A DNA stretch of 64,000 nucleotides from Clostridiales bacterium Firm_08. Its GTDB lineage: Bacteria; Bacillota; Clostridia; Oscillospirales; QAKW01. A model generated the notes under the pieces. It was given only the letters and a program-made list of their open reading frames with translations. It made no database searches and was not told where the DNA came from. This document shows positions 3,763 to 32,473 of the stretch, piece by piece. How positions within the stretch are numbered: the first letter of the stretch is position 1; each line of letters starts with the position of its first letter. The DNA lies in assembly GCA_001604045.1 (NCBI GenBank), contig LVAN01000002.1:1-64000 (forward strand), given 5' to 3'. The translations under genes were made by a program, and so were the position numbers.

Positions 3763-3792
3763 TTGACAACACCTACAAAAGTTTAATATAAT
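3763..3792 (+). promoter_or_regulatory. Sigma-A promoter of the YdbC-like gene
   Basis: TTGACA (3763-3768), 18-bp spacer, TATAAT (3787-3792). Confidence 0.85.
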
Positions 3793-3825: not shown

Positions 3826-4047
3826 ATGCCGGAATTCACTTACGAGATCAAAGACACGTTCGGAAAACTTGTAGAAAGTCCCAACGGATGGGCAAAGGAA
3901 CTCAAATTCATCAGCTGGGCGGGGAGAGATCCCAAGTATGACCTTCGCGACTGGTCGCCCGACGGCACGAAAATGAACAAGGGCATCACCTTCACCAAAG
4001 AGGAACTTATCGCCCTGCGGGATCTTCTCAATTCCATCGAACTTTAA
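3826..4047 (+). CDS. YdbC-like PC4-fold nucleic-acid-binding protein
   Basis: 73 residues. Matches the YdbC/PC4-like family (compact beta-sheet plus helix, homodimeric, binds single-stranded DNA in the studied Lactococcus protein): FTYEIKDTFGKL, GWAKELKFISWAGRDPKYDLRDW and a final helix FTKEELIALRDLLNSIEL. Expressed from its own strong promoter with a GGGGGAT ribosome site and closed by a strong terminator, so it is a single-gene unit. A role in transcription or repair is inference only; no phenotype is established for the clostridial proteins. Confidence 0.8.
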   Translation: MPEFTYEIKDTFGKLVESPNGWAKELKFISWAGRDPKYDLRDWSPDGTKMNKGITFTKEELIALRDLLNSIEL

Positions 4048-4058
4048 TCGCTGACAGG

Positions 4059-4098
4059 ATCTGCCGCGTATCTTTTGAGATACGCGGCAGATTTTTTA
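4059..4098 (+). terminator. Terminator of the YdbC-like gene
   Basis: Perfect 15-bp stem (4059-4073 with 4078-4092), TTTG loop, six T. The next promoter's -35 box starts at 4099. Confidence 0.96.
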
Positions 4099-4127
4099 TT
4101 GACAACGCCGGATGACTCTGTTATAAT
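4099..4127 (+). promoter_or_regulatory. Sigma-A promoter of folT
   Basis: TTGACA (4099-4104), 17-bp spacer, TATAAT (4122-4127), perfect match. Transcription should begin near 4133, exactly at the 5' edge of the riboswitch. Confidence 0.92.
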
Positions 4128-4131
4128 CAAT

Positions 4132-4236
4132 GCGGCAGAGTAAAAGGACAAGCGTCAAGTGTTTCCCGAACGGGGAGTTGTCGGGAAAACGAAAAGCGTT
4201 AAAAACGCTTGCGGTTTGTCCTTTGCATCCCGCTGC
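4132..4236 (+). promoter_or_regulatory. Tetrahydrofolate (THF, folT-type) riboswitch
   Basis: The stretch carries the conserved THF aptamer blocks in order: GCAGAGTA (4135-4142), AGCGTCAAGTG (4151-4161), GGGGAGTTGTCGGG, AACGAAAAGCG, CGCTTGCGG and TTTGCATCCCGC (up to 4233). All helices can form: P1 GCAG/CTGC (4135-4138 with 4233-4236), P2 AAGGACAA/TTGTCCTT (4144-4151 with 4216-4223), P3 CCCGA/TCGGG (4165-4169 with 4181-4185) and P4 AAGCG/CGCTT (4194-4198 with 4206-4210). The aptamer class binds reduced folates and controls folate transport genes in Firmicutes. It sits between a perfect promoter and folT, which supports both assignments. Recognised by eye against the known S. mutans folT sequence, not by a covariance search. 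Confidence 0.93.
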
Positions 4237-4257
4237 GTCGTATCGTTTTCATAGTAT

Positions 4258-4290
4258 GATACCTGCAACGGAAAAAACAAAGGAGGTATC
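4258..4290 (+). promoter_or_regulatory. Putative Shine-Dalgarno sequestering hairpin of folT
   Basis: GATACCT (4258-4264) is the exact complement of AGGTATC (4284-4290), which contains part of the AGGAGG ribosome site (4281-4286) of folT. An upstream GTATC (4240-4244) could pair with the same GATAC instead, giving a simple on/off switch downstream of the aptamer. No terminator lies between aptamer and gene, so control at translation initiation is the likely mode. Inference from pairing only. Confidence 0.55.
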
Positions 4291-4294
4291 TGCT

Positions 4295-4852
4295 ATGAAA
4301 ATTTTTTTATCTAAATTCCCGGCTTCCCTGAAAGAATTCAAGGATCTGCGCGTGCTGGTCTCCGACGCGATGCTCACCGCCTTGTATGTTGTGGCGGCGT
4401 TCTTTCTGAACATTTATCTGTCCCCGACCTCACGCATCGGGTTTTCCTTCGTCTTTCTGATGATCGCCGCCAAGGCGTACGGCCCTGTCAGCGCGATGGC
4501 GATCGGCGGCATCGGAGACGTACTGCAGTACGTTCTGGCGCCGCGCGGCAATTTTTCCTTCGGCATCACCCTTTGCACCATCCTGACGGGGCTTGTGTTC
4601 GGGCTGTGGCTGTACAAAGAGAAACCGACCCTGCCCCGCTGCGTCCTCTCCTGTCTGACCGTTTCCCTGTTCATCGACGCGCTGCTCAAAACTTACGTAC
4701 TAAAGTTTATCGCGCACGTCTCGTTCAAGGCGGAGTTTCTGCTTCGCATCGGCGTGGTCGGTTTGATGTTCGTCATTATGACCGTTGTCGGATATCTGGT
4801 CCTGAACGGTCTGGAAAAGATCACAGCAGGGCTTCGTCGTAATGCGCCCTGA
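4295..4852 (+). CDS. folT: Folate ECF transporter substrate-binding (S) component FolT
   Basis: 185 residues with about six membrane helices. S components of group II ECF transporters bind the vitamin and dock onto a shared EcfA1-EcfA2-EcfT module, encoded here at 31658-34173. FolT-type traits: RIGFSFVFL at 50-58, GxxGDxLQYVLAPRG, and FxxGITLCTILTGLVFGLWL. The start at 4295 follows AGGAGG at 8 nt; the first residues form a cytoplasmic helix. The THF riboswitch just upstream independently argues that the substrate is a folate. The 3' end overlaps the convergent DUF436 gene by 32 bp, and no terminator is visible for folT. Confidence 0.9.
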   Translation: MKIFLSKFPASLKEFKDLRVLVSDAMLTALYVVAAFFLNIYLSPTSRIGFSFVFLMIAAKAYGPVSAMAIGGIGDVLQYVLAPRGNFSFGITLCTILTGLVFGLWLYKEKPTLPRCVLSCLTVSLFIDALLKTYVLKFIAHVSFKAEFLLRIGVVGLMFVIMTVVGYLVLNGLEKITAGLRRNAP

Positions 4853-23046: not shown

Positions 23047-23122
23047 GGTTGGGATAGCTGGACTCGAACCAGCGGAATGACGGAGTCAAAGTCCGTTGCC
23101 TTACCGACTTGGCTATATCCCA
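23046..23122 (-). tRNA. tRNA-Gln (anticodon TTG)
   Basis: Minus strand cloverleaf: acceptor TGGGATA/TATCCCA (23116-23122 with 23050-23056), anticodon loop CTTTGAC with TTG, T arm GCTGG-TTCGAGT-CCAGC, encoded CCA at 23046-23048. Confidence 0.95.
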
Positions 23123-23173
23123 GTATCGCAGCGTTCCGGTTTCAGTATGCCCCGGATCCCTTCCTTATATTAT

Positions 23174-23230
23174 AAACGCTGAATGATCGCCGCAGCGTTT
23201 CGATCCGTTTGCCCTGATCATTCAGCGTTT
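23174..23230. repeat. 15-bp perfect inverted repeat between tRNA-His and tRNA-Gln
   Basis: AAACGCTGAATGATC (23174-23188) and GATCATTCAGCGTTT (23216-23230), 27-nt loop. In the tRNA transcript it forms a long hairpin 6 nt after the tRNA-His CCA; could be a processing signal or an internal terminator. Confidence 0.8.
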
Positions 23231-23235
23231 AAGTC

Positions 23236-23313
23236 TGGGGTGGATGATGAGACTCGAACTCACGGCCTCCAGAGCCACAATCTGGCGTTCTAACCAACTG
23301 AACTACACCCACC
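23236..23313 (-). tRNA. tRNA-His (anticodon GTG)
   Basis: Acceptor of 8 bp including the extra G-1:C73 pair characteristic of tRNA-His (GGTGGGTG with CATCCACC), anticodon loop with GTG, T arm TGAG-TTCGAGT-CTCA, encoded CCA at 23236-23238. Confidence 0.95.
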
Positions 23314-23321
23314 GTAAAAAA

Positions 23322-23398
<77 letters not shown>

Positions 23399-23403
23399 AA
23401 ATA

Positions 23404-23477
23404 TGGAGCAGGTGATGGGAATCGAACCCACGTGTCCAGCTTGGAAGGCTAGCGTTCTACCATTGAACTACACCTGC
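23404..23477 (-). tRNA. tRNA-Gly (anticodon TCC)
   Basis: Acceptor GCAGGTG (5' end at 23477) with CACCTGC, anticodon loop CTTCCAA with TCC, T arm GTGGG-TTCGATT-CCCAT, encoded CCA at 23404-23406. First gene of the four-tRNA operon. Confidence 0.95.
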
Positions 23478-31657: not shown

Positions 31658-32473
31658 TCAGGTCACCACATTGAGAAAGATGATCAGCGCGAGCTGCCCC
31701 GTCATCACGAGCGCCGCGAGCGCGTCCCGCGCCGCGAAATGAAACACTTTATATCTTGTCCGGTCGTTGCCGCCGTGATAACAGCGGCATTCCATCGCGT
31801 CCGCGAGTTCCTCCGCGCGGCGGAACGCCGAAATGATCAGCGGGATCAGGATGGGCACCAGCGCTTTCGCGCGGCGAAAGATGTTGCCCGTCTCAAAGTC
31901 CGCGCCCCGCGCCTTCTGCGCGCTGATGATCTTATCCGTCTCATCCACCAGCGTCGGGATGAAACGCAGCGCGATGGTCATCATCATAGACAGTTCGTGG
32001 ACCGGCACTTTTACCCATTTGAGCGGCGCGAGAAGACTTTCCATCGCGCCGGTCAGCATAATGGGTGAAGTCGTGTACGTCATAAAAGACGTGCCGATCA
32101 CCAGCAGTATGATGCGCACCGCCATAAAAACAGCGTTGCGCAGACCGTTCCAGGTCAGCCATCCGAGCCATGACACGTCCTCAAAGATCGGCGTGCCGGT
32201 ACCGTAGATCAGATTGAATGTCGCCGTAAAAAGAAGTACGAACAAAATGGGTTTTATGCCGCGCAGCACCACCCCGAACGGGATGCGGGAAAGGGCGATG
32301 ATGACGAACATCATCGCGGCGCTTACAAAGTAGCCCCAGCCGCCGCGGATGACGAACAGTGAAACGATATAAAGGATGGTCAGCAGCACCTTGGTGCGCG
32401 GATCGAGTTTATGGATGGGCGAGGCGCCGGGGAAATACTGCCCGAGCGTGATATCCTTAATCACGGGACGCAC
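31658..32473 (-). CDS. ecfT: ECF transporter transmembrane protein EcfT
   Basis: 271 residues. Couples the two ATPases to exchangeable S components of group II ECF vitamin transporters. About six membrane helices; the first coupling motif is QKARGADF (about 187-194) and the second AMECRCYHGG (about 227-236). IHKLDPRTKVLL near the N-terminus is a conserved EcfT start. Starts inside the end of ecfA2 (17-bp overlap). FolT at 4295 is the only S component in the window. Confidence 0.95.
   Translation of the reverse strand: MRPVIKDITLGQYFPGASPIHKLDPRTKVLLTILYIVSLFVIRGGWGYFVSAAMMFVIIALSRIPFGVVLRGIKPILFVLLFTATFNLIYGTGTPIFEDVSWLGWLTWNGLRNAVFMAVRIILLVIGTSFMTYTTSPIMLTGAMESLLAPLKWVKVPVHELSMMMTIALRFIPTLVDETDKIISAQKARGADFETGNIFRRAKALVPILIPLIISAFRRAEELADAMECRCYHGGNDRTRYKVFHFAARDALAALVMTGQLALIIFLNVVT

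Follow-up and report, generated by a model that had tools for sequence, protein, structure and literature searches.

A THF-I Riboswitch Upstream of folT in a Gut Clostridia Genome and Its Probable Action on Translation Initiation

Introduction

The folT gene described here is preceded by RNA resembling a THF aptamer, and the question raised by this locus is how occupation of such an aptamer could be conveyed to expression of the gene. The window analysed is a 64,000-nucleotide stretch at the start of contig LVAN01000002.1, and all features below lie on its forward strand unless stated otherwise. An initial annotation had proposed a platform controlling translation initiation. That proposal is right in kind, and the locus is still best read as a THF riboswitch that controls the initiation of folT translation, an interpretation supported by the folding models presented below; the proposal was incomplete in omitting the masking of the start codon, the link to aptamer helix P1 and a T tract downstream. 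We assign a probability of roughly 0.78 to the reading that the locus is a THF-I OFF riboswitch controlling folT translation initiation.

The Aptamer and Its Promoter

The RNA at 4134-4237 matches Rfam family RF01831 over its full length (model positions 1-99 of 99) with a score of 91 bits and an E-value of 5.4e-20, well above the gathering cut-off of 36. A search with the Rfam THF model had been suggested in the initial annotation as a check on its near-consensus, four-helix aptamer, and the significant match bears out that description. Helices P1 through P4 are all present in the predicted fold and in the RF01831 alignment, together with the conserved loop and junction nucleotides. P1 is short, comprising just 4 bp (4135-4138 with 4233-4236), with a mismatch at the terminal position G4134-G4237, and one aptamer loop carries a 4-nt insert relative to RF01831. 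No other riboswitch family matched the window, and the match is the sole one to the THF family in the genome assembly (1.72 Mb, 86% complete). On the strength of its sequence, this RNA can be taken as a real THF-I aptamer. Positions 4230-4232 lie in the junction strand that joins the ligand-site pseudoknot in this class; both the aptamer pseudoknot and the ligand lie outside the energy model used for folding.

Directly upstream is a sigma-70-type promoter at 4099-4127 that agrees with the consensus at 12 of 12 positions, consisting of TTGACA (4099-4104), a 17-nt spacer and TATAAT (4122-4127). Since the promoter ends 6 nt 5' of the first aptamer nucleotide, the transcript start (+1) is placed at about 4134, so that the aptamer would begin at or close to the first transcribed nucleotide, in agreement with the start predicted earlier. 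An intrinsic terminator of the upstream unit (4060-4098; a 14-bp hairpin followed by T6, with a fold of -25.3 kcal/mol) insulates folT from that unit. Another perfect promoter, TTGACA-18-TATAAT, is found at window positions 3763-3792, 5' of a gene for a 73-aa protein (3826-4047) with a PC4/p15-like domain (PF02229, 34.5 bits). Elsewhere in the window, Rfam matches mark a cluster of at least four tRNA genes on the reverse strand (23049-23477).

The Regulated Gene and Folate Physiology

The aptamer sits upstream of a folate gene. The open reading frame at 4295-4852, starting with ATG at 4295, encodes a 185-aa protein that matches the folate-family ECF transporter S component (TIGR04518) with 87.7 bits over a cut-off of 60, and its earlier naming as folT holds. 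The 3' ends of folT and of a convergent DUF436 gene (TIGR01440) overlap by approximately 32 nt (4821-4852). An EcfT-type transmembrane protein of the CbiQ family, encoded on the reverse strand at 31757-32425 (PF02361, 155.4 bits, the sole match in the assembly), is a possible energising partner of FolT. The assembly contains a match to folC and none to folP, folK or folE, absences that are provisional at 86% completeness, with control searches positive in 11-13 of 14 genomes. Given folC and this lack of matches to the other three genes, control of folate uptake makes sense, and uptake is probably important to the organism. A folate scavenger that shuts down uptake when folate is plentiful is, provisionally, a coherent picture. 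Among named genomes, the SerC protein is closest to those of gut Clostridia MAGs, including RGIG3704 from goat rumen (80%) and Candidatus Heritagella gallinarum (78%).

A Sequestor Hairpin over the Start Site

The whole leader has a predicted fold of -64.4 kcal/mol (z = -5.23), as good as which none of 200 shuffles folded. Its 3' part is dominated by a 19-bp sequestor hairpin with one bulge at 4245-4302, which has a free energy of -22.8 kcal/mol when folded alone. The Shine-Dalgarno (SD) sequence AAGGAGG (4280-4286) lies 8 nt 5' of the ATG, and the 3' arm of the hairpin (4284-4302) takes in half of it (A4284-G4286) and the entire AUG. The inner 7 bp pair GATACCT (4258-4264) with AGGTATC (4284-4290). 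This is the helix that the initial annotation had described as masking AGGAGG; the pairing exists, although it covers only A4284-G4286 and leaves A4281-G4283 unpaired, and the longer outer helix had gone unnoticed. Its 12 bp cover the AUG wholly and include UUUUCAUAG (4246-4254) on CUAUGAAAA (4293-4301). The AUG is unpaired with a probability of 0.001, compared with an average of 0.345 for AGGAGG, and the predicted masking falls mainly on the start codon and less on the SD. When the linker was shuffled with its dinucleotides preserved, none of 100 versions reached the anti-SD duplex (-19.7 kcal/mol); masking of the ribosome start site at this locus exceeds chance.

An Anti-Sequestor Linked to P1

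A second, alternative hairpin spans 4230-4271 (-12.7 kcal/mol alone) and is built from the pairings CCG/CGG, UGC/GCA and GUAUC/GAUAC. The last of these joins 4240-4244 to 4258-4262, a pairing noted in the initial annotation, where the upstream GTATC was seen as a competitor for the masking strand. The pairing is present, but by itself it makes no contact with the aptamer and is uncoupled from the ligand; GTATC as a lone competitor was rejected, since the extension that invades P1 is required. The nucleotides UGC 4234-4236 are common to the P1 3' strand and the anti-sequestor, and the two structures are consequently mutually exclusive. The cost of opening 4278-4299 is 17.0 kcal/mol when P1 is present and 6.2 kcal/mol with the anti-sequestor. 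In computed structure, the start site lies within a stable hairpin that cannot coexist with a P1-linked anti-sequestor, as expected of a translation-attenuation platform. The same sharing of 4234-4236 argues against an ON switch in which the ligand increases folT translation, as P1 held by ligand frees the sequestor to form; no supporting evidence for such a switch was found, and it can be set aside as extremely improbable.

Fold predictions for RNAs of increasing length suggest an order of events. P1 has a probability of 0.66-0.71 while the RNA 3' end lies between 4237 and 4245, and of 0.26-0.70 up to 4264; at 4271 it is lost (0.001), and the anti-sequestor hairpin has formed (0.96). The anti-sequestor persists at 0.91-0.99 for 3' ends from 4271 to 4290, and at 0.84-0.99 up to 4296. 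The inner helix of the sequestor reaches 0.998 once the 3' end is at 4299 or beyond, and the sequestor as a whole 0.97-0.999 for 3' ends at or beyond 4303. The 9 loop nucleotides of the anti-sequestor (4247-4255) complement 4293-4301, the strand carrying the start codon, and could serve as a toehold that speeds the change to the OFF state.

At equilibrium, the full-length RNA is OFF without ligand (sequestor probability 0.998; ensemble free energy of -70.5 kcal/mol versus -64.4 kcal/mol for the anti-sequestor state), so that switching would require kinetics. For this reason a purely thermodynamic switch was rejected as a proven mechanism. To the elements found by sequence and computation, the model adds ligand binding, a switch direction and a kinetic decision, as follows. 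The aptamer would emerge first, from the transcript start. In ligand-free RNA, once polymerase has exposed nucleotides up to about 4271-4290, the transcript would refold into the anti-sequestor, which ties up both the 3' half of P1 and the sequence that masks the start site, and a ribosome could then bind. With THF or a derivative bound, P1 would be held and the anti-sequestor blocked; the emerging SD and AUG would then be captured by the sequestor, precluding folT translation. P1 is stabilised on ligand binding in the THF class (PMC11477058), and ligand should accordingly give the OFF state. The decision would be taken during transcription, with the ribosome arriving, or the anti-sequestor persisting, before the sequestor wins. 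Secondary loss of transcripts at the downstream T tract may also occur.

Conservation among Relatives

Of 197 genomes sampled from the host's order, 134 gave a THF match, 133 of them above the cut-off, with exactly one match in each of the 12 genomes of the host's family. The survey set comprises the 136 aptamers over the cut-off (L001-L136); G034, at 28.2 bits, fell below it and was left out, and L062, L079 and L101 were dropped as having no start within the stretch. Filters passed 121 of the 136 loci for duplex shuffles, 111 for opening cost and 98 for P1 capture, with start codons picked by a simple script, some of which may be wrong. Two family leaders, L010 and L012, were dropped because the chosen starts lie 212 and 327 nt away; the THF aptamer of L012 (G004, 1501-1634) contains a long insert, and its gene is predicted to start 327 nt 3' of it. 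A perfect promoter with the identical 6-nt gap occurs in 5 of the 12 family members (L001, L003, L004, L005, and L009). L003, L004, L005 and L009 have almost the same sequence from aptamer to SD, including a TTTCAGC able to base-pair with the 3' strand of P1. A search for the THF loop pattern in 80 SerC loci from gut Clostridia and Oscillospiraceae MAGs found no aptamer, and its one pattern match (L148) lies in another context.

The same-genus locus L002 retains both the sequestor and the P1-invading anti-sequestor in clearly different sequence, as judged by comparing folds; a MAFFT alignment of the two platforms ignores the helices and was excluded from pair counts. In the L002 sequestor (-17.2 kcal/mol), an outer helix of 12 bp masks the AUG, one base is bulged and the SD is paired in an inner helix; the L002 anti-sequestor (-12.0 kcal/mol) has the same topology as that in the window, with CCG/CGG and UG/CA from the aptamer 3' end. 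Shuffles of L002 reached the anti-SD duplex in 3 of 100 cases, and the P1-strand duplex in none of 100. Across the order, at least 95 of 100 shuffles were beaten by the anti-SD duplex at 69 of 121 loci, and by the P1-strand duplex at 45 of 121.

The cost of opening the SD-AUG region has a median of 12.6 kcal/mol at 111 THF-preceded starts versus 5.0 kcal/mol at 218 background genes, which were drawn from the window (17) and from SerC neighbourhoods (201). The background 95th percentile is exceeded by 88 of the 111 THF starts, and the 99th by 56. Computed over the identical local span, the locus studied here costs 15.6 kcal/mol, more than any of the 218 background genes (whose maximum is 14.3), and L002 costs 10.5 kcal/mol.

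Each of the 10 family leaders that could be used, out of 12, captures the 3' strand of P1 ahead of SD emergence, with probabilities of 0.66-1.0, and P1 returns above 0.3 at full length in only two of them (L001 and L008). Order-wide, capture above 0.5 was predicted at 82 of 98 loci versus 41% of 588 shuffles. In the window this capture is not above chance, as six of six shuffled linkers also exceed 0.5, probably owing to the weak 4-bp P1; the energy of the P1-strand duplex is equalled by just 3 of 100 linker shuffles.

Termination and Other Explanations

The initial annotation had also stated that no terminator follows the aptamer, and this was too strong. A terminator-like tract of seven T residues (T7, 4302-4308), lying in codons 3-5 of folT, directly follows the sequestor and had been overlooked; with it, the hairpin scores 6.7 (above the threshold of 0) by a d'Aubenton-Carafa type formula. 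The sequestor may thus also act as an intrinsic terminator, ligand-bound RNA being partly terminated in codons 3-5 and the remainder left untranslated. This dual control, which we regard as a tentative possibility, is suggested by the 19-bp stem with T7 immediately 3', and 'dual' platforms are a category described in PMC2258182. As in such platforms, the ribosome binding site falls within the 3' arm (4284-4302) of a hairpin near the start codon, and SD-covering terminator-like hairpins are found at 27 of 111 THF starts versus none of 218 background genes. Other observations speak against termination. The foot of the stem consists largely of A-U pairs and the loop measures about 19 nt, two features that disfavour termination. 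The hairpin was also unlisted by a promoter and terminator scan with a loop limit of 8, and the sister locus L002 has no terminator-like hairpin under the same scoring, with 3 nt separating its hairpin from T6. Positive-scoring terminator hairpins occur at 35 of 133 THF loci, 30 of them with the SD inside, yet only two reach past the AUG. Since L002 has no proper terminator, translation is taken as primary; a terminator-only platform as the primary mechanism was rejected on the same absence and on the scan.

Of 121 THF leaders in the L001-L136 set, 76 have at least T5 in the SD-start spacer. Taken with the 27 SD-covering terminator-like hairpins, these spacers fit the 'dual' platform of PMC2258182 for part of the host's order, which suggests that termination and SD masking are combined there. 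In the 111 THF-preceded genes, the SD and start codon are masked far more strongly than in the background set, and many of these genes carry a T run in this spacer, which suggests that THF switches of the order may often join masking to attenuation. A more elaborate proposal for the window locus is that a single hairpin does three jobs, hiding half the SD, hiding the AUG and terminating at the U tract in codons 3-5, with the anti-sequestor loop as a toehold for invasion by the start-codon strand and for reset; we consider this unlikely.

Less probable again is that a real aptamer is followed by hairpins that never switch, with the start site masked constitutively or opened only by ribosome binding. 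The OFF equilibrium fold of the full RNA regardless of any constraint on P1, and the shuffled linkers that equal P1 capture in the window, are consistent with such a static structure. Recurrence of both alternative helices in L002 with different sequence argues against it, as does the combination of capture above 0.5 with subsequent full-length P1 above 0.3, found at 25 of 98 loci versus 2.7% of 588 shuffles.

Comparison with Known Systems

The folT locus is an ordinary case, in that the switch class and the proposed mode of action are both of known kinds; what it adds is a clear translational folT platform for uncultured gut Clostridia. THF-I riboswitches are associated with folT in Gram-positive Firmicutes, according to PMC9881143, and the window locus resembles the class in its full-length covariance match, conserved nucleotides and position 5' of folT; apart from the loop insert and the terminal P1 mismatch, nothing notable distinguishes its aptamer. 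THF-II (the folE motif) also senses THF and acts on translation, as PMC9881143 also states, but its aptamer is different and simpler, with the RBS in P1, and the window matches RF01831 instead. The dual transcription and translation attenuation platform of PMC2258182 shares with the locus a hairpin whose 3' arm contains the RBS and which precedes a run of U residues; here the hairpin also takes in the AUG, the U tract falls within the coding sequence and terminator quality is doubtful. The locus also resembles the translation-attenuating platform of PMC2258182, in which an anti-sequestor and an RBS-hiding hairpin exclude each other and the outcome is OFF, the difference being that masking at the window locus focuses on the start codon and leaves the SD only half paired.
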